Shown here one piece after another: positions 10,393-32,368 of a DNA stretch of 64,000 nt. The notes below the pieces were generated by a model. The model was given only the letters and a program-made list of their open reading frames with translations. It did not search any database and had not been told where the DNA came from. Within the stretch, counting starts at the first letter, position 1. Each line of letters starts with the position of its first letter. Source of the stretch: Geothrix paludis (GTDB lineage Bacteria; Acidobacteriota; Holophagae; Holophagales; Holophagaceae); NCBI RefSeq assembly GCF_022808815.1, contig NZ_JAKZLC010000002.1, positions 372,001 through 436,000 of the forward strand. Direction: 5' to 3'. A program made the translations under genes and the position numbers.

Positions 10393-10530
10393 TGGTTCTC
10401 CTTGGGTGACGGGGGTCACGCGTCTAGCTCGGCGAAGAAAGCCCCCCCCCTCATGCTGGCGAGTCGGGGATGTAGCGAGAGGGCGGCCGCGGCCAGTTCG
10501 AGATTCTGGCCACGGCCGGACGTGTCCTGA

Positions 10531-11670: not shown

Positions 11671-12310
11671 CCTCCGGCAGAGCCGGAGGCCTTATTAGGT
11701 GAGCCGCTCAAAGCGGCTAAGCGGGGTCGCTAACGCGGCCCCGAATTAATTGGGGCCACCTTCCCGGTGGCTTTCAGCGCCAAAGCTCCAGCTTCTCCAA
11801 TCGCTCGTCCTCCTTTTCCTGATTCCGGATATACGTCCGTATCTGGTGCTCGTCACTTCCCACCGTTGATACCAGGTATCCACGCGCCCAAAAATGCTGG
11901 CCCGTGAAATTCCTCTTCGTTTCTCCATACACTCGCGCCAGATGAATTGCGCTCTTGCCTTTCATGTACCCCACCACCTGAGACACTGCATACTTGGGTG
12001 GAATCATCACCAGCATATGCACATGATCTGGCATCAGGTGTCCCTCGAGAATTCGACTCTCCTTATGCCCTGCCAACTCCTTAAACACCTCTCCAAGATG
12101 TTCCCTCAACTTCCCGTACATTACTTTTCTTCTTCGCTTTGGCACGAATATGATGTGGTACTTACACTCCCACTTCGTGTGGCTTAAACTTTCCGTTGGG
12201 TCCATCTCAGTTCTCCTCATATGTGCGCTTGCCGGCTCACCTTTAAGAGTTCTGCGGTGGACTCCTGTAATTGTCAAACTTCTACTGTCACCCCCGCGAA
12301 GCGGGGGGCC
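11671..12310 (-). mobile_element. IS200/IS605-family insertion sequence (single tnpA)
   Basis: A compact element around a Y1 transposase. GC-rich hairpins flank the gene: at the left 11671-11689 (CCTCCGG..CCGGAGG), 11702-11718 (AGCCGCT..AGCGGCT) and overlapping stems at 11723-11757; at the right 12291-12307 (CCCCCGC GAA GCGGGGG). IS200-type elements have no terminal inverted repeats and are recognised at subterminal hairpins, which fits. The exact ends are not determined. It sits between the copper module and the porin gene. Confidence 0.7.
11774..12205 (-). CDS. tnpA: IS200-like transposase TnpA (HUH/Y1 family)
   Basis: A 143-residue Y1 transposase. It opens with 'KWECKYHIIFVPKRRRKVMYG', has the HUH metal motif in MPDHVHMLVMIPP and the catalytic tyrosine in IRTYIRNQEKE, with 'FWARGYLVSTVGSDE' just before. 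These are the standard blocks of IS200/IS605 TnpA, which nicks single-stranded DNA and joins through the tyrosine. Length and motifs are complete, so it may be active. Start ATG 12205 (MDPTESLSHTKW) matches the usual short N-terminus; the frame extends upstream to 12277. Confidence 0.92.
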   Translation of the reverse strand: MDPTESLSHTKWECKYHIIFVPKRRRKVMYGKLREHLGEVFKELAGHKESRILEGHLMPDHVHMLVMIPPKYAVSQVVGYMKGKSAIHLARVYGETKRNFTGQHFWARGYLVSTVGSDEHQIRTYIRNQEKEDERLEKLELWR

Positions 12311-14048: not shown

Positions 14049-14774
14049 TCAACATTCAATACTTTTTGGCATTAAAAGATTGAAATCGTGTTGGTTTGCC
14101 TTTTCATCGACGGATTTGCCATCTCGCAGAATCAACGTTCGATCAAAGAACGGCTGATTCTCCACGTTGTGGGTCACCATGACGATGGTTTGGCCCTGAT
14201 CATTGAGTTCCTTGAGAAGAGCCATGATTTCTGCCGAGGTGGTGGTGTCCAGGCTGCCTGTGGGCTCATCCGCCAACAACAGAGGCGGTTGGTTGACCAA
14301 GGCGCGGGCGATGGCAACCCGCTCCTGCTCGCCTCCTGAAAGCTGGTTGGGCAGGTGTCCGCCGCGATCTTCCAGACCGACGCGCGCCAGCATCCTGGCC
14401 GCCTGGGCGCGCTTCTCGGTCTTCGGTATGGTCTTGACCGCCAGGGGCAGCATCACGTTTTCCAGGGCCGAAAGATAGGGGACCAGGTTGAAACTCTGGA
14501 ACACGAATCCGAGATACTCCCGCCGGAAATCCGCGAGCTTCTCGCTTCCCAAGGCGTAGAGATCGATGCCGTCCACATGGATCGCCCCTGCGGTGGGATG
14601 GCAAAGTCCCCCAAGCATCGAGAGAAGGGTGCTCTTACCTGAGCCGGACTGCCCCATGATGCCCAGGAAGGCGCCTTCTTCCACCTCCAGGTTGAGTCCT
14701 TTCAGAGCTGTAACCTGGTGGTTTAAGCTGCCGTTGTAGACTTTTCTCAAATTTTTGATATCGATGAATGCCAT
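14049..14774 (-). CDS. ABC transporter ATP-binding protein (MacB/LolD type)
   Basis: A 241-residue ATPase with Walker [10 protein letters not shown] (residues 41-49), Q loop in [18 protein letters not shown], signature [15 protein letters not shown], Walker [13 protein letters not shown] and H loop VTHNVE. The spacing and the '[11 protein letters not shown]' block are typical of the MacB/LolD/FtsE group that works with FtsX-like permeases. ATG 14774 follows AAGGACAG; the frame extends upstream into the permease gene. It is encoded 14 bases after the permease and belongs to the trio DUF2318-permease-ATPase. In Campylobacter a similar set accompanies the Ftr1/P19 iron system, so a metal or reductant role is plausible. 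Confidence 0.9.
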
Positions 14775-14788
14775 GGATCTGTCCTTGT

Positions 14789-15946
14789 TCAGATAGCCCG
14801 CAAAGCTTCGGTGGGGTCGAGTTTGCTCGCATGCAACGCCGGGTAGAACGAGGCTGAAGTGCCTACCAGAACGGCTAGGAGAGTGGAGCCGCCGGCCAGA
14901 GACGAGCTCCATGCGAGATGGGGATGGCCCTGCGCCAGCCAAGGGAGGAGAAGACGCGTGACGCCCATGCCCACCAGGTAGCCAAGGACTCCGGCCAGCA
15001 GACTGACGCCGATGGCCTCCATCAGGATCAGAGAGACCACATGGCTCCGGCGAAACCCGAGGGCCCGGAAGATCCCGATTTCCCGGGTCCGCTCATTGAC
15101 GGATCCCATCATGGTAACGAAAACCACCAGCGCGCCGATCAGGAGGACCACCACGGCGACCCCGAATGAGAAGGACTTGAACTGGTCCAGGGCATGTAGG
15201 CGGGTCTTCACCACCTGCTGGATGGCACTCACCTTCGCTCCGGGAAGCGCCTCAGAGATTTGGGAGACCATGTCCTCCACGGGACAATCGCTGCAGAGAG
15301 CGGCCACCTCGACCAGGGACACTTCCCCGTCTTTCTTCAGAATCCGTTGGGCGGTCGGGAGTGGCGCGATCAACAGATCGTCGTCCTGGGACCCGGTTTG
15401 GCGAAGGACCCCGGTAAGCGTGAAGGTCTCGCCCCCAAGTGTCACCGGCGAGCCGATGCTCAGGCCGAGTTTCTGGGCTGCACGTCGTCCGGCCACCAAC
15501 TCATGGTCCGAAGCCAAACGCCTGCCATCGAGAGTCCACCAACCCTTCACCCGGAATTCCGTCCGGGGGTCAACTCCCATCAGCATCAGACGGGAGGAGC
15601 CGATGGTCACCGCTCCCAGCACCTTCGGAGCCACTGCGGCGATGTTCTGGTGGTTGGGGATGGATTTCAGACGGACGAGATCTTGCTCCCTGATTTCCTG
15701 GGCATCGAGCGACAAGCCTCCCAGGGTGATCCCTCCATAGGACAGGGCGAGTTCATCGCTCTTGGGGGTGATCACGATATTGGCGCCGAAGCTCTCCAGC
15801 TTGTGCTCGGCTTCCATGGTCAATGACTGGGTCAGCGAGAGCAGGGTGACGACGGTGGCGACCCCGATGAGCAGACCAGCCACCAGAAAAGCCATGCGGG
15901 ACTTCCGTCGCCAGAGGTTATTCCATGCAATGGTGCGGAGGTTCAT
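14789..15946 (-). CDS. ABC transporter permease, MacB/FtsX type
   Basis: A 385-residue permease with one N-terminal transmembrane helix (residues about 18-40), a large periplasmic MacB_PCD-like domain (about 45-255, including 'SYGGITLGGLSLDAQEI' and the Cys pair in AALCSDCPVEDMV), and three helices at the C-terminal end framed by 'NERTREIGIFRALGFRRSHVV', the hallmark coupling region of FtsX-like permeases. Such permeases usually act mechanically on lipids or proteins rather than forming a simple channel. The periplasmic CxxC is an uncommon feature and might bind metal. The gene follows the DUF2318 gene by eight bases, so the three genes are one operon. Confidence 0.88.
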   Translation of the reverse strand: MNLRTIAWNNLWRRKSRMAFLVAGLLIGVATVVTLLSLTQSLTMEAEHKLESFGANIVITPKSDELALSYGGITLGGLSLDAQEIREQDLVRLKSIPNHQNIAAVAPKVLGAVTIGSSRLMLMGVDPRTEFRVKGWWTLDGRRLASDHELVAGRRAAQKLGLSIGSPVTLGGETFTLTGVLRQTGSQDDDLLIAPLPTAQRILKKDGEVSLVEVAALCSDCPVEDMVSQISEALPGAKVSAIQQVVKTRLHALDQFKSFSFGVAVVVLLIGALVVFVTMMGSVNERTREIGIFRALGFRRSHVVSLILMEAIGVSLLAGVLGYLVGMGVTRLLLPWLAQGHPHLAWSSSLAGGSTLLAVLVGTSASFYPALHASKLDPTEALRAI

Positions 15947-15954
15947 GCCTGCTC

Positions 15955-16473
15955 CTAGTTAAGGCGGAAGTACGCCGCGCCCTGGATCAGTTCCGATTCG
16001 GGAATGAGAAGGCGGTCCCCCACGAGAGTCCGAGCCAACGGAACCGGGTTGCATCCGCCCTTGACCTCGTTGATCAGGTTGGTGTGGAAGCGCTGGTTGC
16101 ACTTGTTGCAGACCATGTAGTCCCCCTCCTGCCGGTAGCCCATGCGGCCGCGGAAGCAGACCACGCAGGAATCGATGGCCGCCCGGATCTGCCCATCAAC
16201 ACTTTTCACCACGAGGAAATTCACGTCCGTGTCCCCACTCCGGTAGGTGAAGAAATGCGCCCTGCCATCGGCGATTCCCGAAGCCTGGAGGCTTACCTGG
16301 CCTTGGGAGGCCTTGACCGTGGGGTACTTCCCGCTGCCGTTCCCACTCCCCAGGATGTTCCAGCCCAGCATGGCCACGACGACCAGCCCGAAGGCGGCTC
16401 CAAGGATGATCGGCAGGTTTTTCTTCTTCTGCGGTTGGACGAACTGGGCCTGTTTGGCTTTGTGCTGAGACAT
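15955..16473 (-). CDS. DUF2318 (FtrD-like) membrane-anchored metal-binding protein
   Basis: A 172-residue protein with one N-terminal transmembrane helix (about 20-41) and a periplasmic domain. The domain has CVVC in AAIDSCVVCFRGRMGYRQEG, a second CNKC in YMVCNKCNQRF, and a later GGCNPVPL, the cysteine layout of DUF2318 proteins (annotated elsewhere as membrane Fe-S or FtrD-like proteins). Such proteins are linked to Ftr1-type iron permeases and P19. Here neither partner is encoded, only the ABC permease and ATPase directly downstream. Likely role: handling a metal or electrons in the periplasm for that transporter; the metal is not known. ATG 16473 has AGGAGT upstream. Confidence 0.85.
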   Translation of the reverse strand: MSQHKAKQAQFVQPQKKKNLPIILGAAFGLVVVAMLGWNILGSGNGSGKYPTVKASQGQVSLQASGIADGRAHFFTYRSGDTDVNFLVVKSVDGQIRAAIDSCVVCFRGRMGYRQEGDYMVCNKCNQRFHTNLINEVKGGCNPVPLARTLVGDRLLIPESELIQGAAYFRLN

Positions 16474-18473: not shown

Positions 18474-18725
18474 TCAGCGGCAGGAAGGAGAGCAGATTGA
18501 GGGCTGTGCCCGAGGATCCTTGGGCGTATCTGGGGGACGCAAGATCATCAGCGCGGCGAGGGCCAATCCGATGACAGCCGAAAAATAGACGATGCCTCGC
18601 GCCCACCGGTTCTGGGGATCTGGGTTGATCGGATCCGGTGAGTCGAAGGGCGGTAATTCTGACTCGCCCCGCCTCGCGGAGATTCCCGTTGGGTCCTTCG
18701 GGCTGTCGGGCAGGTGTCTGGTCAT
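18474..18725 (-). CDS. Small single-span membrane protein
   Basis: An 83-residue protein with a long polar N-terminus rich in Asp and Pro (residues 1-45) and one transmembrane helix (about 45-65, ARGIVYFSAVIGLALAALMIL), ending in a short tail with two Cys (ICSPSC). Its ATG overlaps the stop of the degenerate kinase gene (ATGA), so it is co-translated with it. No family recognised. It may be an accessory subunit of the kinase-like protein. Confidence 0.6.
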   Translation of the reverse strand: MTRHLPDSPKDPTGISARRGESELPPFDSPDPINPDPQNRWARGIVYFSAVIGLALAALMILRPPDTPKDPRAQPSICSPSCR

Positions 18726-20425
18726 GACGTCAGTTCCAGCGGGAATCTGAGCGTGATTTCGGTCCACCCGTGGCTCGTTCGAGCGATGCCAATATCTCCA
18801 CCCATGGAATGGACCGTTTCAGAGACGTTATAGGTTCCGAATCCATCGACTGGGGGGATCCCCGGGAGACAGAACAGGGGGTCGAACAACCTTGCAAGTT
18901 CCGCATCCGTTTCGTTGCGACCAGGGTCCTGAATTTGCACCGCCACCCATCCTGCCGCCTGCTGACTGGATATCAGAACCGAACCCCTTCCACTCGCCAG
19001 ATCCATCGCTCGCTGGATCAGGAGTTCTAGGCTTCGGCGAACCAAGCTCTCCGGTCCGCGAACCGGGCTCGGGTCAGAATCGAGATCGACATCGATTCCC
19101 GCCATGGTGCCTCGGTTTATGTGAAAGGACTCGATGACCTCCCTCAGACAGACCTGGAGGTCGAACACGCGAACATCCGGTGATTCTTCAGAGGTTGCAG
19201 CCGTGTGGCTGAACTGACGCAGGAGCAAGGCGGCCTGTTCTGAGGCCCGATGGAGGGTCCTCCAGGCTTCGGCCTGAGCGGGTGGGGCGTCGCCTCCAGG
19301 CTTGAGAAGCTCCTGCGCGAAGAGCACCGGGTGCATCGCATATTCAAGATCTTTCGCGATCGCACTTGCACGTCGGCCAACGTCAGCTTGCCACTGGGAT
19401 TCCACCATTCTCCGCTCGCGTTCCACATCATTTGACACATCGCGCATGAGCGCGATGAACGAGGGGCCACCCATATGATCAATGCGTCCGATGCTTGCAT
19501 CCACGGCCCGTAAGGCCCCGCTGGCGTGGACCAGATTCAACCTCACTGGTCGCTCGGAAGATGCAGCCTCCATTCGGCTCACGGTTTCCTCGGGCAGGAA
19601 GGTATGGATGCGCGGCCTCATGGCGTGCCGCAGAGAAGGAATGCCCACCAAGGCTGCGAATCCGGGATTGAGCCGAATCACGTCTCCTTGGGAATCCCAG
19701 GCGATTACGCCATCTGGAATGGTGTCGACCAGGGTCTGGAGAAAGTCCGCGAGAACCTGGCTTCGATGCTGTTGGTAGAAGGCCAGCCCGCCGGCCAGGC
19801 AAAACCCCATGGCAAGAAGGACGGATGCACCCGCGAATAATGCGAGTTGTCGTGCATTCTGTCGGCTGGACCGGATGGCGAGTTCCAACATGTCTTTGTG
19901 GTAACGAGCCAAGGCCTGTAGGGCGCCCAGGACAGTCTGATGTTGGTGGTCCAGATGGGCATAAGCTTCCATGGCTTTCTGCCATCGAAGCTCTCTCTCG
20001 GGCCCGGCCGGAAGGGCCTTGAGGTTCTGGGCGTGCTGTCTGGCTAAGGCAACTTGGTCGAGATACCCTGAGATGGATCGATCGACCGCTGTGAGGTAGG
20101 CGTCTGGTTCTTGGCCGGTCCGCCGGCCAAGCTCCTGTCGGGAGGCTCTCAGGCGATCGATGCTGGCTTCTAGGGCCGCGGATTCGACTTCGGGGCGTTC
20201 GGCGTGTAGTAACCCAAGGGCCTTCTCATGGACTTCCTCCAGCACTCCCATATGCCTGGACGTCTCCAAGGTCCATGTGCTGCAATGCGCGAATCCGAGG
20301 GAGGCTGCCTGAGTCGACTGAATCAATAAGACAGACCAGAGCAGAAGCCCGAGAAACGGCAGTGCCACGGCTCCAAGAATCCAGAGCTTTCGACGATGCG
20401 AGACAGAAGGATATTTTGGAGCCAT
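18722..20425 (-). CDS. Membrane sensor kinase homologue lacking the phospho-acceptor His
   Basis: A 567-residue protein: TM1 (about 13-36), a helical periplasmic domain (about 40-190), TM2 (about 195-217), a PAS domain (about 228-335, 'LVDTIPDGVIAWDSQGDVIRLNPGFAALVG'), then a kinase-like module. In the helix where the phospho-acceptor should be, the sequence is 'RRASAIAKDLEYAMHPVLFAQELL': Lys358-Asp359 occupy the usual His-Glu. The ATPase domain is also altered: the N box reads 'SLELLIQRAMDLASG' without the key Asn, and the G2 region is GFGTYNVSETVHSMGGDIGI. It is therefore probably a signalling pseudokinase or a very divergent kinase. It heads a set of coupled small membrane genes and follows the TRASH-like genes. 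Confidence 0.8.
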   Translation of the reverse strand: MAPKYPSVSHRRKLWILGAVALPFLGLLLWSVLLIQSTQAASLGFAHCSTWTLETSRHMGVLEEVHEKALGLLHAERPEVESAALEASIDRLRASRQELGRRTGQEPDAYLTAVDRSISGYLDQVALARQHAQNLKALPAGPERELRWQKAMEAYAHLDHQHQTVLGALQALARYHKDMLELAIRSSRQNARQLALFAGASVLLAMGFCLAGGLAFYQQHRSQVLADFLQTLVDTIPDGVIAWDSQGDVIRLNPGFAALVGIPSLRHAMRPRIHTFLPEETVSRMEAASSERPVRLNLVHASGALRAVDASIGRIDHMGGPSFIALMRDVSNDVERERRMVESQWQADVGRRASAIAKDLEYAMHPVLFAQELLKPGGDAPPAQAEAWRTLHRASEQAALLLRQFSHTAATSEESPDVRVFDLQVCLREVIESFHINRGTMAGIDVDLDSDPSPVRGPESLVRRSLELLIQRAMDLASGRGSVLISSQQAAGWVAVQIQDPGRNETDAELARLFDPLFCLPGIPPVDGFGTYNVSETVHSMGGDIGIARTSHGWTEITLRFPLELTS

Positions 20426-20446: not shown

Positions 20447-20737
20447 CTACGGCATGTCCGGCATGTAGGTACCAGACGCCCATACGTCCTTCTCGGGGGC
20501 CATCTTCATGCATTTGGGCGAATTCTTGGGAGTCCCGTCCGCCTTCAAATAGTCATTTGGTGCCGCGGTGAGCGGTTCTTCGCAAGGCGTGCAGCAGAGG
20601 GCGTACTGCTGACCACGGATGTCAGCCGTCGGGCTTTCCTTGTCCACCTCACCCGAGCAGACCGGGCAGATCACATTGACGGCGGGTTTGGACGGCGCGT
20701 TGGCAGTCATAGCGAGGGTCAATAGAAGAGAGAGCAT
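20447..20737 (-). CDS. Secreted TRASH/YHS-like small metal-binding protein (paralogue 1)
   Basis: A 96-residue protein with a signal peptide (to about ANA) and one small Cys-rich domain: 'NVICPVCSGEVDK' then 'IRGQQYALCCTPCEEPL' and 'DYLKADGTPKN'. The order ICPV.G..V - Y..CC..C - YL..DG.P.N is shared with three other genes in this window (20867, 21709 and 22845). It resembles TRASH/YHS-type metal-binding treble-clef domains. This copy has an extra Cys in CPVC and a Met/Lys-rich tail (KCMKMAPEKD...YMPDMP) in place of His repeats. Start ATG 20737 has TAGGAG upstream. It likely binds Cu or another soft metal in the periplasm. Confidence 0.75.
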   Translation of the reverse strand: MLSLLLTLAMTANAPSKPAVNVICPVCSGEVDKESPTADIRGQQYALCCTPCEEPLTAAPNDYLKADGTPKNSPKCMKMAPEKDVWASGTYMPDMP

Positions 20738-20866
20738 ATTTTTTCTCCTAGGGGATCACGGCGGGGGAATGAAGGTGGGCCTTGGCCGTGACAAGGCCCA
20801 CCATTGGCGGCTTCAATCGCCTTTTCAGGACCATGAGGACCCTTCCCATGAGGGGGAGTCCGAACA

Positions 20867-21145
20867 TCAATGCATGTGTCCGCCGTGGCCCGCATGGCCA
20901 GAGGTAGGCATCGCCGGGGCTTGGCCGGCATTCTTCGGGGTACCGTCCTCGTTCAGATACTTGCCAGGATCGTTCTTGAGTTTGCTGTCGCAGTCGGCGC
21001 AGCAGATCCTGTATTCCTGCCCACGAACGGTCACGGTCTTGCTCTTTTCGGTCACCTTTTGTCCGAGGACGGGGCAGATGAGGTTGGTCGCCGGTTTGGT
21101 TTCGGGGTTGGCAGCGAGTGCCAGGGCGAACAGCAGGTTGATCAT
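20867..21145 (-). CDS. Secreted TRASH/YHS-like small metal-binding protein (paralogue 2)
   Basis: A 92-residue protein with a short signal peptide (MINLLFALALAANP), the shared domain 'NLICPVLGQKV...VRGQEYRICCADCDSKLKNDPGKYLNEDGTPKN', and a His/Gly-rich tail (SGHAGHGGHMH). The Cys residues in ICPV and ICCADC are the likely ligands, and the His tail probably adds metal capacity. ATG 21145 follows AAAGGACA; the longer frame to 21256 is not signal-like. Among the four paralogues this is the most typical. Confidence 0.78.
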   Translation of the reverse strand: MINLLFALALAANPETKPATNLICPVLGQKVTEKSKTVTVRGQEYRICCADCDSKLKNDPGKYLNEDGTPKNAGQAPAMPTSGHAGHGGHMH

Positions 21146-21608
21146 GGATGTCCTTTCAGTGGGTGACGGCCTGGAGAAAGGGAGGGACAGCCCGGGCCGC
21201 CGTTCGGGGCTGATCCATGCAATAGGGCTCACCTGGGAAGCGCTCAACCGTTCCAAGACCCGGCGCCGGGGGTGTTCCGAACCCTCCAGAACAGAACATC
21301 CCCGGCGCCGGCGGCACCCCGAAGGGTGCCCTCCCCTGGTCCTGGGTCCTGCGGCGGAGGCGTGTCGCAGGTTCCGTCACGGTCCACTTTTTCGTGACGG
21401 CCCCCTCCAGGAACACAGAGGAGATCCGCAGGCAGCAGCCGACCGTCAAGCTTCGCCCTTGCGTCGCCTGACCTGTCGAACCAACATCCTGCTTGCGGAA
21501 TGGGTGCACAAAACCTCTCTTACCCCGTTTGAAGGGCATGCGTCTGGGAATCCCAGGGAACATTTCGAGCGATCGGATTGGGATCGCTGAGTGTGTTGGC
21601 CAAACTCC
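21146..21608. other. Non-coding stretch with three strong hairpins
   Basis: No convincing gene. An 18-base inverted repeat with one G-U type mismatch lies at 21260-21277/21294-21311, GGCACCC..GGGTGCC at about 21313-21330, and CCGTCACG..CGTGACGG at about 21377-21402. On the minus strand these follow the paralogue-3 gene and precede paralogue 2, so they may terminate or attenuate transcription within the operon or stabilise its mRNA. They could also be remnants of a small repeat element. Confidence 0.5.
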
Positions 21609-21708
21609 TTAGTGGAGGTGGATGGTGTCGGTGATCAGTGCCTCGCCGGCCCGTTCGAAGTAGATGGCGAGTTCCAATCCGCCGGAATGGGCGAATTCAT
21701 CTCTCGAC
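21609..21708 (-). pseudogene. Frame-displaced coding-like tail after paralogue 3
   Basis: Immediately after the stop at 21709, another minus-strand frame reads protein-like sequence: ESRDEFAHSGGLELAIYFER, then AGEALITDTIHLH and a stop. It has no credible start of its own (ATG at about 21759 lacks a ribosome site). It may be the lost C-terminal part of the upstream TRASH-like protein, cut off by a one-base frameshift, or the remnant of a separate gene. Confidence is low. Confidence 0.3.
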
Positions 21709-22122
21709 TCAGTGCTGATGGCCCTCGTGAGCTTGGTGGGAGGAGTCGGGTTTGCCTTCATCCTTCTTTGGGCCCTCTTTCGAATCGCGCGTCGGGTCGT
21801 TGAGAGGCCTTCCCTCCTTGTCGAGGTACTTGTCGTAATCCTCCGACATGGCAGGCCCACATCCATCACAGCAGACCAAGTAGTAGTTGCCCCGGATCAC
21901 CACCTCTCGGTCTCGACCTGGCTTGACGGGTTGCCCCATGACGGGGCAGATCGTGTTGGTGGCCTTCACTTTTGGCCCGCTGTCCTGATGCCCGGAATGA
22001 TCCTGGGTGGTGCTGTGTCCTCCGTGGCCGGAGTGTCCGCCATGGCTGGGGCCACACTGCGCCATGGCGGGGGATGCAGCCAACGACAGCAGGACGGGCA
22101 GGAGCAGGGTGTATGGGTTCAT
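21709..22122 (-). CDS. Secreted His-rich TRASH/YHS-like metal-binding protein (paralogue 3)
   Basis: A 137-residue protein: signal peptide ending AMA, then a His-rich mature N-terminus (CGPSHGGHSGHGGHSTTQDH), the shared Cys domain 'NTICPVMGQPVK...IRGNYYLVCCDGCGPAMSEDYDKYLDKEGRPLN', and a polar tail ending in SSHQAHEGHQH. With His clusters on both sides it is the most metal-rich of the four paralogues. ATG 22122 has AAGGAGG at good spacing. A different frame beyond the stop continues with protein-like sequence, so the C-terminus may have been longer. Confidence 0.78.
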   Translation of the reverse strand: MNPYTLLLPVLLSLAASPAMAQCGPSHGGHSGHGGHSTTQDHSGHQDSGPKVKATNTICPVMGQPVKPGRDREVVIRGNYYLVCCDGCGPAMSEDYDKYLDKEGRPLNDPTRDSKEGPKKDEGKPDSSHQAHEGHQH

Positions 22123-22163
22123 TTCAACCTCCTTGGGGTGAAGTGTTCGAAAGCCGGCGGAGT

Positions 22164-22397
22164 TCACGGCTGATCAGGTTTCGACGGGACCGGATCCGGG
22201 TCAGGACCGCGGTCGTTTTTGGGATGCCCCGGGAGGCCCGATTCCCCCGGATTTCGCTGAGATTCGGCTGGTCCAGAACGGGGAGCCTCGCGCTCTGCCG
22301 TTCGGGGTTGGGGCTCTCGGGAGGGGCCATGGTGGCCCTTACCGTGGAAGATCATCCAGCCCAGCGCCATCATGATGCCCATGGCGAGAATGTTCAT
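22164..22397 (-). CDS. Small single-span membrane protein
   Basis: A 77-residue protein with an N-terminal transmembrane helix (MNILAMGIMMALGWMIFHG), a His pair (GKGHHG) at its end, and a disordered Pro/Arg-rich tail. ATG 22397 has AGGAGG directly upstream, which supports it as a gene despite its simplicity. The Met-rich helix followed by HGKGHH is similar to small accessory proteins seen beside copper exporters. No family recognised. Confidence 0.58.
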   Translation of the reverse strand: MNILAMGIMMALGWMIFHGKGHHGPSREPQPRTAEREAPRSGPAESQRNPGESGLPGHPKNDRGPDPDPVPSKPDQP

Positions 22398-22844
22398 GAA
22401 TGCCTCCTGTCTGAGTGGCAGTACCGCGTGAGGGGTTCGATCAGGCATGAACGATCTGCCCGTCCGCGGCGCTGACCTCGCCACAGCGGATGCTCCGCCA
22501 GCCCCGCCCCGGGGCCGGAACCGGAGAGACCTGCGCCCTTGTAAGCAGGTCCTCCGGGTCCGGGGGCGCCCATCCGGACACCCTTCCCGTCCTTCCCGGT
22601 GAGTGCCGCCATGACCCGCCCCCGCGGAATCAAGGAAGCACCCGCGCTGAATGAGGCGCGCGGATTCGGGCCGGGACTGGCGGGTACCACGAGGCAGGCG
22701 TGGATCATGGTTGACGGTGGCTCATGGAAGAAGGTTTCATGGGTGACTCCTTATGAAGGGCTAGGCCCCCTTAGGTGGACGCAGAAGCCAGGGCCTGGGG
22801 TGGCTGGCACATCCATCCACCTGGATGAACAGACGGCTGTTTGC
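22398..22844. other. Intergenic stretch, no gene seen
   Basis: About 450 bases of GC-rich sequence between the small membrane protein and paralogue 4. Frames open on both strands look like shadows (Gly/Pro/Arg-rich, no ribosome sites). Nothing else was recognised. Confidence 0.45.
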
Positions 22845-23120
22845 TCAGTAGTGATCGCGTACCTTGCCCCCTGTCTGAGTGCTGCTGGCGTTCCTCGGTC
22901 GCCCCTCCTGATCCAGGAACTGGTCAGGTTTCTGGGTCAGTTGCTGGCCGCAGTCTGAACAGCAGACGTAATAGTTCCGTTCCCGGACAGTCACGACCTG
23001 ATTCCGATCGGCCACGGGGTTGCCCAGAACAGGGCAGCGGCCATTCGTGGCAGGCTTGGCCGCTTCCAGGTTCGTGGCCGCGGCGATGATGGTGAAGGTA
23101 AGGAGAACTGCATTGCGCAT
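22845..23120 (-). CDS. Secreted TRASH/YHS-like small metal-binding protein (paralogue 4)
   Basis: A 91-residue protein with a signal peptide (to about LEA) and the same domain: 'NGRCPVLGNPV...VRERNYYVCCSDCGQQLTQKPDQFLDQEGRPRN', ending in a short polar tail without His repeats. AAGGAG precedes ATG 23120. It is the first gene after cusA, 34 bases downstream, and therefore ties the TRASH-like family to the Cus efflux operon. Confidence 0.77.
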   Translation of the reverse strand: MRNAVLLTFTIIAAATNLEAAKPATNGRCPVLGNPVADRNQVVTVRERNYYVCCSDCGQQLTQKPDQFLDQEGRPRNASSTQTGGKVRDHY

Positions 23121-23154: not shown

Positions 23155-26100
23155 TCAGGCTGGTTCAGGGGATGAAGTCATGGGTCCCTCCACCACCTCC
23201 TTGCGCTTCCAGAGGTAGTAGATGGAGGGGTAGACCAGCAGCTCCAGCAGGAAGCTGGTGGCCAGGCCGCCCACCATGGGCGCGGCGATGCGCTTCATGA
23301 CATCGGCGCCCGTGCCCGTGCTCCACATGATGGGCAGCAGGCCCATGAAGGCCGCGAAGACGGTCATGGCCTTGGGCCGCACCCGCTTCACGGCCCCGTG
23401 GATGATGGCCTCCACCAGGTCGCCGGTAGTGTTCAGGCGGCCCTCCCGCTTCGCCTCGTCGTGGCTGAGGTCGAGGAAGAGCAGCATGAACACGCCGGTC
23501 TCGGCGTCCAGGCCCATGAGGGCGATGAGGCCCACCCAGACGGCGATGCTCATGTTGTAGCCCAGGGCCCACAGGAGCCAGAAGGCGCCGATGGCGCTGA
23601 AGGGCACGGCCAGCATCACCACGGAGGCCTTGAAGGCGCTCTTGGTGTTGGCGTAGAGCAGGCCGAAGATCAGCACCAGCGTGATGGGCAGGATGACCTT
23701 CAGCCGCTCCTTCACGCGGATCATGTTCTCGTACTGCCCGGACCAGGTGAGGCTGTAGCCCGCGGGCAGCTTGAGGTCCTTCTCCACCGCGGCCTTGGCG
23801 TGTTGGACGTAGGTGCCCACGTCGAACTTCGACGTGTCGAAATCCACCAGCACGTAGCCGTTCATCTGGCCGTTCTCGTCGCGGATCATGGCGGGGCCAT
23901 TCGTCCACTTCAGTTCGGCAATTTCCTCCATGGGGATCATGGCGCCATTGGGTGCGGGAACCAGAACACGCTTCAGCGCTTCAGGACTCTCGCGGTAATC
24001 CCGGGCGTAGCGCACGTTCACGGGGTAGCGGGCCCGGCCGTCATAGACCGTGCTCTGGTTGTCTCCGCCGATGGCGGTCATCACCAGCATGTTGGCCTGC
24101 TCCACGCTGAGCCCGTAGCGGGCCAGCTGGTCGCGCTTGAGCACGAAGTCCAGGAAGTAGCCCTGGGCCGTGCGCTCCGCGAAGGCGCTGCGGGTGCCCG
24201 GAACGCCCGACAGGATTCGCTCCGCGTCGACCGACACCTTCTGGATCGTCTCCAGGTCGGCGCCGTTGATCTTGAGGCCGACGGGGGTGCGGATGCCTGT
24301 ACTGAGCATGTCGAGGCGGGCCTTGATGGGCATGGTCCAGGCGTTGGGGATGGCCGGGAGTTTCACCACGCGGTCCAGCTCCGCGACAATATCCTCCTGG
24401 GTGATGCGATCCCGCCAGATGGGCCGGAGCAACGCTTTCAGGAAGTCCGGAGCCCAGGAGCTGAACCACCTAGGCTTCTCGCGCCACTGGTCTTCGGGCT
24501 TGAGGACGATGACCGTCTCCATCATGGAGAAGGGGGCGGGATCCGTGGCGGTGTCCGCCCGGCCCGCCTTGCCGAAGACGCGGTCCACCTCGGGCACGGT
24601 GCGGATGAGGCGGTCCTGCACCTGGAGGATGCGCTGGGCCTCGGTCTGGCTGAGACCTGGCAGCGTGGAGGGCATGTAGAGGAGCGTGCCTTCGTTGAGG
24701 GGCGGCATGAACTCGCTGCCCAGGCTCATGAACGCGGGAATGGTGGCCGCCACCAGCAGCACGGCCACGGCGATGGTGGCCTTGGCGTGCCTCACCACGA
24801 AGCGGCAGGGCCCCTCGTAGATGCGGTGGAGGAAGACGCTGATGGGATGCTTCTCCTCGGCGTAGTACTTGCCCACGGCGATCTGGGTGAAGGTCCAGGC
24901 CAGCCACCGGGGCTTGAACATGAAGGGCTCCACCCGCGCGAAGAGCATGCGCATGGCGGGATCGAGCGTCAGGGCCAGGATGGCCGCGATGGCCATGGCT
25001 AGGTTCTTGGAGTAGGCCAGGGGCTTGAAGAGGCGACCCTCCTGGTCCAGCAGGGTGAAGATGGGCATGAAGCTCACCGCCACCACCAGCAGGGAGAAGA
25101 ACACCGATGGCCCCACCTCCATCAGGGCCTCCAGCCTCACGTGGTGGAAGTCCCCCGGTTTCCCCGCCTCGATCCACTTCTCGATCTTCTTGTAGGCGTT
25201 CTCCACCTCCACGATGGCGCCATCCACCAGCACGCCGATGGAGATGGCGATGCCCGCCAGGCTCATGAGGTTGGCGTTCTGCCCGATGCCGTACATCGGG
25301 ATGAAGGCCAGCGCCACGCTCACGGGGATGGTGATGATGGGCACCAGGGCCGAGGGCACGTGCCACAGGAAGATGAGGATGATGATGGAGACGACGATCA
25401 TCTCCTCGATGAGCTTGTGCTTCACGGTGCTGATGGCGTGGTTGATCAGCTCGGAGCGGTCGTAGACTGAGACGATCTCCACACCCTCCGGGAGTCCCTT
25501 CTTCAGTTCAGCCAGCTTGGCCTTCACGCGCTCAATGACGTTCAGAGCATTCTCACCTTGGCGCATGACCACAATGCCACCCACCACGTCGCCGTGACCG
25601 TCCAGGTCAGCAATACCCCTGCGCATCTCAGGGCCGAGGCTCACGGTGGCTACTTCACTTAGGCGAACGGGCGTACCGTTCTCTGCTTTGAGCACAGCTT
25701 GCTCGAGATCCTTGGTGGATTTGACGTAGCCACGTCCCCGAACCATGTACTCGCGGCCACTGTATTCCACGAGCCTGCCACCGACTTCGGCATTGGCTCC
25801 CTTCACCGCTCCGATGACAGACTCGATGGGGATTTTGTAGGCTGCGAGTTTGTTGGGGTCCACCTGGACCTGGAACTGCCGGGCCTGGCCACCGACGGTG
25901 GCCACCTCGGCCACGCCCGGTGTGCTCTGGACGGAGTAGCGCAGGAACCAGTCCTGGAGCGAGCGCAGCTCATCCGTGCTGTGCTTCCCGCTGTGATCCA
26001 CCAGGGCGTACTGGTAGATCCAGCCCACGGAGGTGGCGTCGGGGCCGATGGAGGTCTGCACCCCGGGTGGCAGGCTCGAGGTGATCTTGGAGAGGTACTC

Positions 26101-26469
26101 CAGCGTGCGGCTGCGGGCCCAGTAGATGTCCGTGCCGTCCTCGAAGATCACGTAGACGTAGGAGAACCCGAAATCTGACAGGGCTCGGACCGCCTTCACC
26201 TTCGGGGCGCCCAGGAGGCTAGTGACGATGGGGTAGGTGACCTGGTCCTCGACGATGTCGGGGCTCCGGTCCCACTTGCTGTAGACGATAACCTGGGTGT
26301 CGCTCAGGTCCGGCAGCGCGTCCAGTGGGATGTTCCGCATGGTCCAGAAGGACATGGCAAGCAGAACCGCCGAGGCGGCCATCACCAGCCAGCGGTTCTC
26401 CGCCGAGAAGCGGATGATCCGCTGCAGGAAGGTCGGGTGTTCAGGGTCGTAGGCGACGTTTCCGCTCAT
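23155..26469 (-). CDS. cusA: Heavy-metal RND efflux pump, CusA/CzcA family
   Basis: An 1104-residue inner-membrane RND transporter of the heavy-metal (HME) group. It opens with '[44 protein letters not shown]', contains '[21 protein letters not shown]' in TM4 (proton-relay acidic residue), '[24 protein letters not shown]' and the C-terminal TM block '[22 protein letters not shown]'. These match CusA-type Cu(I)/Ag(I) pumps more closely than CzcA; the CusB partner upstream with heavy-metal-binding domains supports that. It uses proton influx to push periplasmic metal through CusB/CusC. Met-triad residues were not verified. It is 10 bases downstream of cusB. Confidence 0.92.
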   Translation of the reverse strand: [1104 protein letters not shown]

Positions 26470-26479
26470 CTCTTCCCCT

Positions 26480-27940
26480 TCAGTGTTGGTGGCCGCCCGC
26501 CGGGGCGGCGGCCGGGGAAGCGGGTTTCTGGCTCAGGTGTGCCAGGGCGGCCTTGAGGCGGGACTCGGAATCCACCAGGAAGTTCGCGCGGACGACCACC
26601 TCGTCACCGGCCTTCAGGCCCGAACGGATCTCGACCTTCTCGCCCACGGTGGTACCAGTGGTCACTTCCCTGGGTTCAAACTTGCCGTCACCCAGGGCAA
26701 TGAAGGCCACCTTGGTGGTGCCGGCATCCAGCACAGCGTCCAGGGGAACCAGCAGACCCTTTCGCCCCGGGCCCTTGAGTAGGACCTCTCCGAACATCTC
26801 GGGCTTCAGGTCACCCTTGGGGTTGGCGAATTCCAGGCGGGCTTTGGCCGTGCGGGTCTTGGGATCCATGACAGGGTCCACGAAGGCCACCCGACCCTTG
26901 AAGGTGTGGCCCGGCTGGCTCTCGAGGCTTAGGTCCGCAGACGCACCCACCTTCACACGGCCGAGCTCGGCCTCGTAGATGTCCGTGAGAACCCACACAC
27001 GACTTAGGTCCGTGATTTCGAAGGGGATGTCCGCAGGGGTAATCCGGGCGCCTTCCACCACGTTCTTCGCCGTCACGATGCCCGAGATGGGGCTGCGCAA
27101 GGTGAGGGACTTCTGGACCTCGCCTGTCTTCTCCAGGCGGTCCACGGCCTCCGCAGGCACATCCCAGAGCAGCAGGCGCCGCTTCGCAGATTCCAGCAGC
27201 TCGCCACCGGACTGCTGGAGCGATCCACTGCTCAGGGCCTTCTGGGTCTTCAGGGCCAGCAGGTATTCCCGCTGGGCGCTGACGAACTCAGGGCTGTAGA
27301 GGCTGAACAAGGGCTGGCCCTTGGCCACGGGCTTGCCCACGTAGTCCACGAAGAGCTTCTCCACGAAACCCTCCACCTTCACGTTCACCTTGCGAACGCG
27401 TGTCTCGTCCACCGCCACGCGGCCGACGGTGCGGAGCTCCCCGCCGACGAGGCCTTCAGTCACTTTGTCCGTTCTCAGGCCGATCAACTGCTGGCGCTCG
27501 TGATCGATTTTCACCGTGGCATGGGACTCGATCCCCGTTCCTTCACCCTTCAGGTCGCCCTCGTAGACAGGGACATAGTCCATGCCCATTTCGTCCTTCA
27601 TGGGGACCTGGGACGTCATGCTGGGATTCATCGGGGAGCGATAGTAGACGATCTTCCCCTTGTCCTTGGGAGCCTCCCCATCCATGGGCACCAGGTCCAT
27701 GCCGCAGATGGGGCAGGTTCCCGCATGGTCCTGGATGATCTGAGGATGCATGGGGCACTGGAACATCTGCTTCTTGGGCGTTGAAGCCGTGGTGGCGGAT
27801 TCGGCCCCATGGTCATGCTTGGGCGTGGGGCGCAGGAGCAGGGTGCCTCCCACACCGGCCACCAGCCCCAAGGCCACCAGGCCTAGTGTGCGGAGGCGGG
27901 AGGGGCGGGCGGGGGTTGTCTCAATGGATTCATCAATCAT
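26480..27940 (-). CDS. cusB: Periplasmic adaptor CusB with heavy-metal-binding domains
   Basis: A 486-residue membrane-fusion protein. An N-terminal anchor (about 16-36) is followed by a heavy-metal-binding domain 'QMFQCPMHPQIIQDHAGTCPICGMDLVPM' and a second degenerate one ('YYRSPMNPSMTSQVPMKDEMGMDYVPVY'), then the lipoyl/barrel/alpha-hairpin body ('VNVKVEGFVEKLFVDYVGKPVAKGQPLFSLYSPEFVSAQREYL') and a C-terminal His-rich end (AGGHQH). This is the standard CusB arrangement of Cu/Ag efflux. It links CusA to the CusC channel and delivers metal to the pump. It lies between cusC and cusA. Confidence 0.93.
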   Translation of the reverse strand: MIDESIETTPARPSRLRTLGLVALGLVAGVGGTLLLRPTPKHDHGAESATTASTPKKQMFQCPMHPQIIQDHAGTCPICGMDLVPMDGEAPKDKGKIVYYRSPMNPSMTSQVPMKDEMGMDYVPVYEGDLKGEGTGIESHATVKIDHERQQLIGLRTDKVTEGLVGGELRTVGRVAVDETRVRKVNVKVEGFVEKLFVDYVGKPVAKGQPLFSLYSPEFVSAQREYLLALKTQKALSSGSLQQSGGELLESAKRRLLLWDVPAEAVDRLEKTGEVQKSLTLRSPISGIVTAKNVVEGARITPADIPFEITDLSRVWVLTDIYEAELGRVKVGASADLSLESQPGHTFKGRVAFVDPVMDPKTRTAKARLEFANPKGDLKPEMFGEVLLKGPGRKGLLVPLDAVLDAGTTKVAFIALGDGKFEPREVTTGTTVGEKVEIRSGLKAGDEVVVRANFLVDSESRLKAALAHLSQKPASPAAAPAGGHQH

Positions 27941-27954
27941 GGTCTACTCCGGGC

Positions 27955-29391
27955 TCACATCGATTTCATGGCAGGACCGCCTTCGCCCTTGGCGGAGGTC
28001 GTTCCGGATTTGGCAGGGGACGAGGGCATGGCGGATCCGCCAGGGCTCCCACCCATCCCCATGGACCCACTGCTCAAGCTTTGAGCGGTGATGGCAGGTG
28101 TCCCCGCCAGGTTGAATTCCTCTTGGGCGATTTGCAGAGCCTGCGCTTGCGCCAGGGTCTGGAGGAACCCACCTCGATCGGAAATCCAGCCGTTGAGAGC
28201 CTCTAACGCGCTCAGGAAAGGTGCGCGACCGGTTTCATACTGAGCCAAATTGGCCTGGAAACTGGACTCGCTCTGGACCAACAGCCCTTCTCGGTAGAGC
28301 CGCAACGTGTCGAGTGCCGCTTCTAGCTGGGCCGAACGCTCGTGGATTCTTTGGTTGAGAAGAATACGGATGCTTTCTGCGTCGGAGCCCTGAGCGCGCC
28401 GACGGAGTTCCTGCTCAGAGACAGCCCGCTGTTGTTTCTGCTTGGACCAGACAGGAAGGGAGACGGAGAATCCGACCTGCCACATGGGATCAAGTCCACC
28501 GCGGGGCATGATGCCGGCGCTGACCGCAAAATCCGGGTAACGATCCCGCTTGGCCAGATCCAGGCTGCGTTCTGCCTGCTTGATGCCGAGGCGGGCGGCC
28601 TGAAGTTCAGGGCTCTCCTTTTCGGCCCGGCTCGTCCAGATCTCTACCGGGCTTGCCTCGGGGAGAACATCCTCAAGACGGGCTGTTGTTGGAATCGGCT
28701 CCTCGGATGAGAGCCCGCGAAGCCGGTTCAACGTGGCCTGGAGGACCTGCTCCTCGGAGCGGAGCGAGATGCGTGCCTGACGGATGCGGTTCTGTTCAAG
28801 CTGGGCCCGGAGAAGATCCGCCTGCGACCCTTGGCCCACCTCATACCTCAGCTTGGTGATGTCGCTGGCCTTCTGCCAGAAGAGGGCCTGCTGATCGAGC
28901 AGTTCCATTTGTCCGCGCACGAGCAGCAGTCCGAAATAAGCCCGTTTCACGTCGGCGATGAGGGTGAGACGAGTACGGTCTTCCGTCAGCTTCGATGCCT
29001 CGGCTCCAAGGCTAGAGATTTCGCCTCGGAGACTCCGCTTCCCGGGCCAGTACAGCGGCTGGGTGAGCATTACCTGGTAGTAGCTCGTCTCCATCTTTCC
29101 GACCTGGATCCCTTTGAATCCATCGTTCTGAAGGCCCAGCGTCAGGCTGGGGTCGGGTAAGGCCTTGGATTGAGGGACGCGCTCTTTCTCGGCCTCCACC
29201 AAGGATTTGGCCTTAGCGAGATCCGGGTTGCGATCCAGGGTCTCCTGGATCAGCGATTTCAAAAGAGGGTCTTCCGTCTGCGCCGCCTGTAGGTTGGCAG
29301 GCAAGGAAGCTGAAGCGGTTGGGGATGCCTGGGTCTGGGCCCACCCGACGACCGGGATGAGGCCCAATGCCAGGCGCGCGAATCTGCGCAT
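27955..29391 (-). CDS. cusC: Outer-membrane efflux channel, TolC/CusC family
   Basis: A 478-residue outer-membrane factor with a signal peptide ending VGWAQ and two OEP repeats. The first covers 'LIQETLDRNPDLAKAKSLVEAEKERVPQSKALPDPSLTLGLQND'; the second starts near 'EIWTSRAEKESPELQAARLGIKQAERSLDLAKRDRYPDFAVSAGIMPRG'. The long helices of the periplasmic tunnel follow each. The C-terminal 50 residues are Gly/Ser/Met-rich (SSGSMGMGGSPGGSAMP), an unusual extension that may bind Cu(I) through Met. It starts the Cus efflux unit with cusB and cusA. Confidence 0.9.
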   Translation of the reverse strand: MRRFARLALGLIPVVGWAQTQASPTASASLPANLQAAQTEDPLLKSLIQETLDRNPDLAKAKSLVEAEKERVPQSKALPDPSLTLGLQNDGFKGIQVGKMETSYYQVMLTQPLYWPGKRSLRGEISSLGAEASKLTEDRTRLTLIADVKRAYFGLLLVRGQMELLDQQALFWQKASDITKLRYEVGQGSQADLLRAQLEQNRIRQARISLRSEEQVLQATLNRLRGLSSEEPIPTTARLEDVLPEASPVEIWTSRAEKESPELQAARLGIKQAERSLDLAKRDRYPDFAVSAGIMPRGGLDPMWQVGFSVSLPVWSKQKQQRAVSEQELRRRAQGSDAESIRILLNQRIHERSAQLEAALDTLRLYREGLLVQSESSFQANLAQYETGRAPFLSALEALNGWISDRGGFLQTLAQAQALQIAQEEFNLAGTPAITAQSLSSGSMGMGGSPGGSAMPSSPAKSGTTSAKGEGGPAMKSM

Positions 29392-29922: not shown

Positions 29923-30464
29923 GGGACACCACCTCTTGGGGGGAAGTCTAGACCGGGGGTCATCTCATGCAACGCACTTTCACATTCCGAACCTTCCTCC
30001 AGGTCGATTCCCGGAGAATTTCGTCTCGCAGGACTTTGATCTATTAATTCGAATAAAGCGATTTACGTGTAAATCGACGATGCGAAGCCGCTTGAGCCCA
30101 GTCGTGACTCGAGTCACTGAAATGGAGCTCTCTCTTTAATCTGTTCTTAATCTTTCGAATCGTGAGGCCCGCCGCCTAAACGTCCCGTCACCATGGCGCG
30201 GCTTGGCCTTCGCCAGAGAGCCCTGACCGGCACCCTTACGGCCTGTGCACGACACCGGCATGGGCAGAGAGGTAAGGCGGCTTCGCATTCTCTACCGGCA
30301 GTGGCACGCCTCTTCTCACCCTAGGCACTCAAATCCCGCCGTTTCGGAGCGGGCGTAAGCCATCCATGTTCCGGGAGAAGTGCCGGATACCGGGTGGTGG
30401 AAGGTAATGAATCACTGCGGTGTATGGTAGGAGGGCAATCCACTATTACACGACTCCGTGTATC
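29923..30464. promoter_or_regulatory. Divergent promoter region of the Cus and Czc operons
   Basis: The 540-base gap between the minus-strand Cus run and the plus-strand ArsR/Czc run. It contains a perfect dyad CGATTTAC-GT-GTAAATCG at 30059-30076, in a locally AT-rich patch, and a second dyad at 30447-30462 listed separately. No gene is evident. The first dyad is well placed for a metal-responsive repressor or activator of the Cus side. Confidence 0.55.
30447..30462 (+). promoter_or_regulatory. Probable ArsR-type operator upstream of the Czc operon
   Basis: TACACG-ACTC-CGTGTA, a perfect six-base dyad with a four-base spacer, ends just before the ATG of the arsR-type gene. A repressor bound here would block its own operon, the classic ArsR/SmtB arrangement. 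The dyad is seen; the binding is inferred. Confidence 0.6.
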
Positions 30465-30854
30465 ATGACTCCGATGGCTAAGCCCACCCTGAAGGTCTCT
30501 CCTTGTCCCCCTAAGACGCCTCTCACGAAGCGACCTCTGTTGGGTCCCGGCGAATCTTCTGAACTGGCGCGGATCTTCGATGTGCTCGCCTCCGACACCA
30601 GGCTCCGTCTTCTCCATGCCCTTGTGCTCCTAGGCGACCCCTGCATGAGCGACCTGGCCGAAGCCGTGGGAATGAAGCCCCAGGCGGTCTCCAACCAGCT
30701 CCGCCGTCTGGTTGACTTGAGCATCCTCAGCACGCGCCGTCATGGGACCCACATCCACTACCGCATCGTGGATCCATGCGTGACCAAGCTCATGTATCAC
30801 GGGCTCTGCCTCATCGAGGAGACCCACACCCACGCTCAAGTGACCGCGTCATGA
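30465..30854 (+). CDS. ArsR/SmtB-family metal-sensing repressor
   Basis: A 129-residue winged-helix repressor: 'ELARIFDVLASDTRLRLLHALVLLGDPCMSDLAEAVGMKPQAVSNQLRRLVDLSILSTRRHGTHIHYRI'. The alpha3 position carries Cys in DPCMSDL, and the C-terminal helix has DPCVTKLMYHG and a His-rich end (ETHTHAQ). These could form Cys/His sites for Zn, Cd or a related ion, as in CmtR/SmtB relatives. ATG 30465 (or 30474) follows the operator-like dyad. Its stop overlaps the start of the next gene, so it is the first gene of the czc-type operon and likely its repressor. Confidence 0.9.
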   Translation: MTPMAKPTLKVSPCPPKTPLTKRPLLGPGESSELARIFDVLASDTRLRLLHALVLLGDPCMSDLAEAVGMKPQAVSNQLRRLVDLSILSTRRHGTHIHYRIVDPCVTKLMYHGLCLIEETHTHAQVTAS

Positions 30855-31120: not shown

Positions 31121-31192
31121 GCGATTCCAGCTTCGAAGCCACGGCTGGGCCTCGCCTTGCCGCGCCATCCACTCGAACCGATTGAGGCTCCC

Positions 31193-32368
31193 ATGCGATC
31201 TCTCCTTCTTGGGGCGATGCCCTGCCTGCTCTTCGCGCAGGCGCCGCCCCTCTCCTACGACGACATCATCCAGCGGGCCCGGACCAGCCCCGAGCAATTC
31301 CGGACCGAGGCCCTGCTCGCTGAACGGCATCGAGCCCTGGCCAGCACACGTGGATTCCTGCGCGAGGGACCAGCCCTTGGCATCGCCGCCGGGCCTCGCA
31401 CGAACCCTATCGCTCCGACGACAACGGACCAGACCATAGATCTGGACTTGCCGTTGTTTTTGTCGCAAGGCACCCGGAGTCGCCTGGAGGCATCCCTCGG
31501 CAAGGCCGACCCGGCGCTTCGTGACGCCGCCAAGATTGAGGCACGTTTCCGTCTCCGCCAAGCCTATCTGGACGCCTGGCTGGCCGAGGAGGTCCTGCAC
31601 CTTCGGGAGACGGATCTCGCGACGGTGCAAGCGTGGTTCAAAGCCGCCCAGGTGCGGCTGGAGACCGGAGCGGACCCCGCGTTCCAGGTGACCCTGGTCG
31701 AAGGCGAGCGGCTCCGCGCCCAGGCTGATCTGGACGAGGCCCGCCGCCAGCGACTGAACGCCTGGGCCGTGCTGCGATCCCTGGCTGATGTGCCCTCGGC
31801 ACCTACCGTTTTGGCGGCCCCGGGGGAGGCTTCCCTGCCACCCTCCGACGACCTCCAACCCAGGTTCGAGGCCAGCACCCTGCGCCGGGCCATCCAGGAG
31901 CGTCTGGATCTGGAAGAGCAGGCCCTTCGGCACCAGGAAGCCATCGCCACCAGCCGGTGGAGTCTCCGAGGCAGCTACGGCAAGGAAGGGGAAGACCGCA
32001 TCGGCAAGGTTGTCTTTGCGTATCGCTTTCCCCGCCCGGGTGAAGGTCAGGCCGTCCGGCGGGAGACGGAGGCCACTATCCAGGCCACCAAGCGTGAGCT
32101 GGAGACCGCCCTACTGGAACTGGATGCCCGCTTCCAATCCGCGCTGGCAAGGCTTCAGACCGCCACGCCGCCCTTGCCCTTCACGGGCTTCGAGCAGTCC
32201 CTCAAGGCCATCAGCTTGCGCCTCAGCGAGGGCAAGGAACGCCCTTCCGAGGCCCTGCCCATCCGCCGCCAGCTCCTGGAGGCGAAGGCCGCTTCCTTCC
32301 GCCGCCTCTACGCCGCCCACCTTCTGTCCGCCGAAGTCCAGGCCCTCACCAACGGGGTGAACCCATGA
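31193..32368 (+). CDS. czcC: Outer-membrane efflux channel, TolC/CzcC family
   Basis: A 391-residue outer-membrane factor with a short signal peptide (MRSLLLGAMPCLLFAQ) and the two-repeat TolC layout ('YDDIIQRARTSPEQFRTEALLAERHRALAST', then 'FEASTLRRAIQERLDLEEQALRHQEAIATSRWSLRGSYGKEG'). It is shorter than the CusC channel in this window. ATG 31193 is chosen because it opens the signal peptide. It overlaps czcB by four bases; the three efflux genes form one operon under the ArsR-type gene. Confidence 0.85.
   Translation: MRSLLLGAMPCLLFAQAPPLSYDDIIQRARTSPEQFRTEALLAERHRALASTRGFLREGPALGIAAGPRTNPIAPTTTDQTIDLDLPLFLSQGTRSRLEASLGKADPALRDAAKIEARFRLRQAYLDAWLAEEVLHLRETDLATVQAWFKAAQVRLETGADPAFQVTLVEGERLRAQADLDEARRQRLNAWAVLRSLADVPSAPTVLAAPGEASLPPSDDLQPRFEASTLRRAIQERLDLEEQALRHQEAIATSRWSLRGSYGKEGEDRIGKVVFAYRFPRPGEGQAVRRETEATIQATKRELETALLELDARFQSALARLQTATPPLPFTGFEQSLKAISLRLSEGKERPSEALPIRRQLLEAKAASFRRLYAAHLLSAEVQALTNGVNP

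Follow-up and report, generated by a model that had tools for sequence, protein, structure and literature searches.

The TRASH domains described to date are mostly cytoplasmic, occurring in regulators, at the N-termini of ATPases and in L24e. The chaperone CusF, an established partner of the CusCBA efflux system of Escherichia coli, binds its metal through Met, His and Trp ligands. Two solved TRASH/YHS folds are named in PMC4626032, L24e and the YHS domain found in toluene monooxygenase, and the metal positions of L24e and YHS domains are given there as C/D1, C4, C48 and C52; these four positions are also those by which L24e binds Cd, and a YHS domain from an adenylyl cyclase of Mycobacterium phlei shows a response specific to Cu2+ (PMC4626032). 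No report of proteins of the type considered below, or of TRASH/YHS proteins encoded together with cusA, was found in the open-access literature.

The four small genes concerned, designated A to D, are located within a 64,000-nucleotide stretch of Geothrix paludis DNA analysed as a whole (the window), where they are flanked by cusA and a histidine kinase gene. The order on the minus strand is cusC (27955-29391), an outer-membrane channel assigned from context, with homologues in synteny at nearly all of the cus loci compared; cusB (26480-27940), a membrane-fusion protein whose N-terminus carries an HMBD heavy-metal-binding domain (Pfam HlyD_D23 and HMBD; NCBIfam CusB/RND_mfp); cusA (23155-26469), a heavy-metal RND pump; D (22845-23120, 91 aa); a small ORF for a putative membrane protein (22164-22400); C (21709-22122, 137 aa); B (20867-21145, 92 aa); A (20447-20737, 96 aa); and a divergent sensor histidine kinase (18722-20425; Pfam PAS and HATPase_c). 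A gap of 35 bp separates cusA from D, the first of the TRASH genes, and each of the four ORFs has a plausible start with a purine-rich, ribosome-binding-site-like sequence upstream, AAAGGA for B (ATG at 21145) and AAGGAGG for C (ATG at 22122). An initial reading of the DNA made without database searches (the sequence-only reading) had taken the neighbouring pump to be Cus-type, and this was confirmed by a TIGR00914 score of 1059 bits against a cut-off of 701, placing it in the CusA/CzcA family, and by alignment to E. coli CusA (3k07), in which M573, M623 and M672, the Cu(I)/Ag(I) ligands, all coincided with Met residues of the window CusA.

The small ORF between D and C gave no Pfam match and has a weak homologue (36%) directly after cusA in another cus locus, L048. 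Just past gene C, 30 minus-strand codons (21612-21701) match the C-terminus of a 152-aa protein encoded in that same locus (L048 8579-9037; 12/18 identical), apparently what is left of a deleted gene. The DNA repeats of the region were mostly short or due to the shared coding motif; there was also one GC-rich inverted repeat in the gap between C and B (21260-21311; 18-nt arms, 94% complementary, 16 nt apart). Also present in the window are a Cu-type P-ATPase (8281-10419), an IS200-like transposase (11774-12277), an ArsR-type regulator (30420-30854), a second heavy-metal RND system (31157-36574) and a phage-type integrase (50993-52351), so that the stretch from 8281 to 52351, cus locus included, looks like a metal-resistance island.

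That the four genes constitute one family was upheld, in that query B retrieved A, D and C from the genome with E values well beyond chance (3e-20, 6e-17 and 2e-10, respectively), and the alignment of all four contained 16 invariant columns, including C24, C48, C49 and C52 in the numbering of A. In the position scheme used hereafter, positions 1 and 4 are the first Cys of the CPV motif (C24 of A) and the residue following its V, while the CC pair occupies positions 48 and 49 and the last Cys position 52, as in protein A. Two of the motifs previously ascribed to the family, CPV and YxxCCxxC (C-x3-C, positions 48 and 52), were present in 4/4 proteins; two details required correction, namely the glycine of the first motif, which is shifted in A (CPVCSGEV, with the second knuckle cysteine present), and the closing motif, which is the looser [YF]L-x-x-[DE]G-x-P-x-N, with E in C and both F and E in D. 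The individual proteins comprise A, with five domain cysteines (CPVC...CCxxC) and a Met/Cys tail (CMKM...YMPDMP); B, with CPVL...CCxxC and a His/Met tail (GHAGHGGHMH); C, with CPVM...CCxxC and His-rich sequence on both sides; and D, with RCPVL...CCxxC and a short RDxY tail.

When compared with Pfam, A exceeded the cut-off of PF24273 (TRASH_HVO_1752_C; 28.0 bits, cut-off 27), B scored 22.3 bits against a TRASH model (cut-off 27) and 14.9 bits against YHS (PF04945, cut-off 30.3), and D fell just below the cut-off of Arc_trans_TRASH (PF08394; 25.8 bits, cut-off 27); C alone had no TRASH match in Pfam, and is tied in by its homology to A, B and D. An NCBIfam search gave no relevant family match for any of the four, and a PDB sequence search gave nothing relevant. 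AlphaFold2 models of B and C, with a pLDDT of about 90 for the domain and low-confidence tails, came nearest, among solved folds, to the YHS domain at the C-terminus of toluene monooxygenase hydroxylase (Z 4.5 and 5.1, respectively), with L24e further down the list (Z 2.8 and 3.3). These fold matches are weak (Z 2-5), and with Foldseek alone no match with an E value below 1e-3 was obtained for the models, low scores being expected of a domain of only some 45 residues. As judged by sequence and predicted fold, A to D are divergent members of the TRASH/YHS group of metal-binding domains, a kinship that had been correctly anticipated. Their N-termini are hydrophobic with A-x-A-like sites (judged by eye), typical in C (SPAMA-Q) and in homologues from loci L141, L142 and L153; those of A and B are missing the positive charges usual at the start of a signal sequence. 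All four proteins are probably exported.

The secreted, single-domain, repeated form had been thought unusual, an opinion that could not be sustained. Searches detected the family in 74 of the 100 related genomes searched, and in nearly all Geothrix genomes a tandem pair is located downstream of a core cusCBA. The usual layout in the regions fetched was cusC-cusB-cusA followed by a CPV...CC gene and a DPVC YHS gene, both tail-less; the order cusC-cusB-cusA-TRASH was seen in about 40 genomes and recurs in other families (L141, L142 and L147), and in the regions fetched from Holophagaceae a cusA is found no more than 4 kb from 101 of the 120 family domains. The genome that harbours the window also has a core locus, on another contig (L008 8024-8543). 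The window locus is representative of a second, accessory kind of cus locus, which as a rule has at least three TRASH domains plus a kinase homologue, the latter being found in L047, L048, L050, L051, L054, L060 and the window. In other Acidobacteriota (L141, L142, L144 and L147), cusA is adjoined by exported-type TRASH/YHS proteins having from one to three domains, and elsewhere in the phylum many family matches fall in long frames, P-type ATPases among them; a search of plasmids returned mainly distant P-type ATPase/SilP domains. The chromosomes sampled for homologues were those of Acidobacteriota, and restriction to that phylum is not claimed. One ORF in L048 (10684-11238, plus strand) contains two tandem TRASH domains, and may represent an intermediate stage of gene fusion, linking separate genes with the multi-domain proteins seen in other Acidobacteriota.

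Inspection of the putative metal positions indicated that C1, C48, C49 and C52 are present in B, C and D, which have L or M rather than Cys at position 4, that A has all five of C1, C4, C48, C49 and C52, and that the YHS partner from Geothrix core loci has D1, C4, C48 and C52 without C49. Of the 151 sequences aligned for the phylum set, 82 combined C1 and C49 with no C4, 50 combined D1 and C4 with no C49, and 7 had both C4 and C49. Although a Fisher test of C4 against C49 gave p of about 3e-20, the sequences are related by descent, and independent pairs with support on the tree numbered only 3, too few for significance to be attainable, almost all of them agreeing with the expected direction. 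The association mostly reflects a few ancient changes; the alternation is accordingly described here as a pattern and is not claimed as proven coevolution. We hypothesise that a four-thiolate site was rebuilt by trading C4 for C49, and the alternation raises directly the question of how TRASH sites bind metal. A divergent relative with the signature CPVSG...WxCHxxH, in which His replaces Cys at the last ligand position, is encoded directly after cusA in three loci (L061 8326-8700, minus strand; L051 772-1410, plus strand; L060 10737-11105, minus strand).

A maximum-likelihood tree of 114 domains (56 columns), in which many forks are open, contained clades for C (9 rows, support 100/100), D (4 rows, 99/88) and YHS (99/77), and grouped A and B with the CPV-type copies, A as a long branch beside B. 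Both C and D have orthologues, with tails kept, in at least three other genomes each, and the corresponding dN/dS values (about 0.02 for C, 0.1-0.2 for D) indicate strong purifying selection; B is 64% identical to the core-locus copy of its own genome, from which it differs by a dS of about 0.77. Because C and D cluster with orthologues elsewhere and B has diverged to this extent from the core copy, a recent local tandem duplication was ruled out. The same observations, taken with the dN/dS of C, indicate paralogues that are old, and A to D constitute a maintained set rather than a fresh duplication. The earlier suggestion of duplication followed by tail diversification holds for the differing, conserved tails, with the modification that the duplications are old: C and D have orthologues throughout the family, and the nearest relatives of B are core-locus copies.

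The tails themselves followed locus type. Core copies stop at the domain, with no more than three residues beyond it in 40/43 CPV and 36/37 YHS copies; by way of contrast, the C class is His-rich on one or both sides, A/B-like accessory copies have His- or Met-rich tails, and the RDxY tail occurs in 4/4 D copies (D and the orthologues found). The tail differences are real, each class keeping its own tail and the core pair having none, and of the four tail types first described, those with His at both ends, His and Met stood, while the supposedly tail-less copy proved to be D with its short conserved tail. The resultant natural series on one shared domain (tail-less pair, His, Met, double His and RDxY) renders the role of the tails testable.

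With respect to the function of the set, the distribution of CusF was informative. No match to CusF (PF11604) was detected in A to D, nor at E <= 0.001 in the whole genome, and none of the 27 sampled Holophagaceae had a match over the cut-off, as against 99 of the 270 other sampled Acidobacteriota (Fisher p = 4e-4), an absence that may represent a single ancestral loss unrelated to the TRASH proteins. Given that the CusA Met ligands are kept and that CusF is not over the cut-off in the sampled Holophagaceae, a CusF-like role is the best reading, and it is proposed, with a probability of roughly 0.6, that A to D are exported single-domain TRASH/YHS proteins acting for the accessory CusCBA as thiolate buffers or chaperones of Cu(I)/Ag(I). 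Each protein would bind Cu(I) (and Ag(I)) via the cysteine cluster C1, C48, C49 and C52, with C4 also contributing in A; the set would serve as a periplasmic buffer of the metal and pass it on to CusB/CusA, the task performed by CusF in E. coli; additional sites, weaker or faster in exchange, or else docking surfaces would be provided by the His- and Met-rich tails, such variety enabling the set to cover a range of affinities or partners; and the adjacent kinase might monitor the same metal pool. Geothrix species grow anaerobically, for which reason free periplasmic thiols would be tenable, although these thiols could form disulfides rather than bind metal. In proposing this we infer export, metal binding, the identity of the metal, its transfer to the pump and the roles of the tails, counting in favour the homology, predicted fold, conserved cysteines, tail classes, purifying selection, cusA synteny, CusA Met ligands and CusF absence, together with the Cu2+ response and Cd binding described for a YHS domain and L24e, and against it the weak fold matches and the missing n-region charges of A and B. 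Where CusCBA lacks CusF, a conserved, probably exported TRASH family fixed to cusA offers a concrete candidate for the carrier that delivers Cu(I) to the pump.

The kinase homologue that adjoins the TRASH genes in seven accessory loci could be read differently, the TRASH proteins then being Cu(I)-loaded signalling partners that present metal to its periplasmic domain, a sensor set rather than a buffer. The predicted periplasmic part does contain potential ligands, H47-C48 and H176 being invariant and H157 and H160 nearly so, and H365 is conserved in the seven homologues. However, the N-box Asn is replaced by QR[AG] in 7/7 homologues, no response regulator gene is adjacent, and core loci possess the TRASH pair without this kinase, so that this role is considered unlikely; the kinase may be degenerate or altered, possibly a pseudokinase metal sensor. 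Slightly less likely again is a function as thiol-redox or structural zinc proteins which repair or scaffold envelope proteins under metal stress: a vicinal CC-x-x-C is chemically plausible as a redox pair, and structural zinc is common in TRASH and treble-clef sites, but the His/Met-rich tails and the fixed link to a Cu/Ag pump favour metal handling.

Downstream of the accessory cus locus, the window also encodes an FtrD-like (DUF2318) protein, a MacB/FtsX-like permease and an ABC ATPase (14049-16473, minus strand), neighbours that could point to iron rather than copper. FtrD and MacB homologues are likewise located downstream on the same strand in L048 (14251-15940), L047 has FtrD, and Campylobacter FetA combines DUF2318 and YHS domains in one protein (PMC10783030), from which it might be supposed that the TRASH proteins handle iron together with this FtrD-like protein and ABC transporter. 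Such neighbours were nevertheless confined to accessory loci, the core pair and most cus-TRASH loci having no nearby FtrD, and the constant partner is cusA; an iron function is accordingly judged highly improbable. The proposed buffer or chaperone role can be extended to a bolder and rather doubtful scenario, in which Holophagaceae (and relatives) swapped CusF for thiolate Cu(I) carriers with C4 traded for C49, and in which the accessory loci specify a relay, affinity-tiered by His, Met or RDxY tails, for loading the pump and for signalling to a membrane kinase. If true, such a relay would handle copper through periplasmic cysteines, in a way suited to anaerobes.

Comparison with known systems places A to D closest to the TRASH domains (PF24273, PF08394 and L24e), which they resemble in the C1...C48-x3-C52 spacing, domain length and predicted fold, A alone being over the PF24273 cut-off; B, C and D differ in the missing second knuckle C4 and the extra C49, and all four, being probably exported, differ from the mostly cytoplasmic known domains. 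YHS domains (PF04945), such as those of the toluene monooxygenase hydroxylase C-terminus and the M. phlei adenylyl cyclase, provide the nearest solved fold of the models, and the core-locus partner in Geothrix is of the DPVC YHS form with a length and gene position like those of the window proteins, which however have C1 for D1 and the CC pair throughout, B, C and D being without C4 and B under the PF04945 cut-off. Like the CusF/SilF chaperones, A to D are small, probably exported and encoded with cusCBA, and the same job is proposed for them, although the domain is unrelated and their ligands would be cysteines. The tails are reminiscent of the His/Met-rich periplasmic sponges of the SilE/PcoE type, but are joined to a folded cysteine-rich domain. 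Finally, the FtrD/MacB/ABC ATPase set after the accessory cus locus parallels Campylobacter fetABCD, both of them associating YHS with an FtrD-like domain and with an ABC transporter of the FtsX type; in FetA, DUF2318 and YHS are fused, whereas here they are coded for by separate genes and tied to an RND copper pump.
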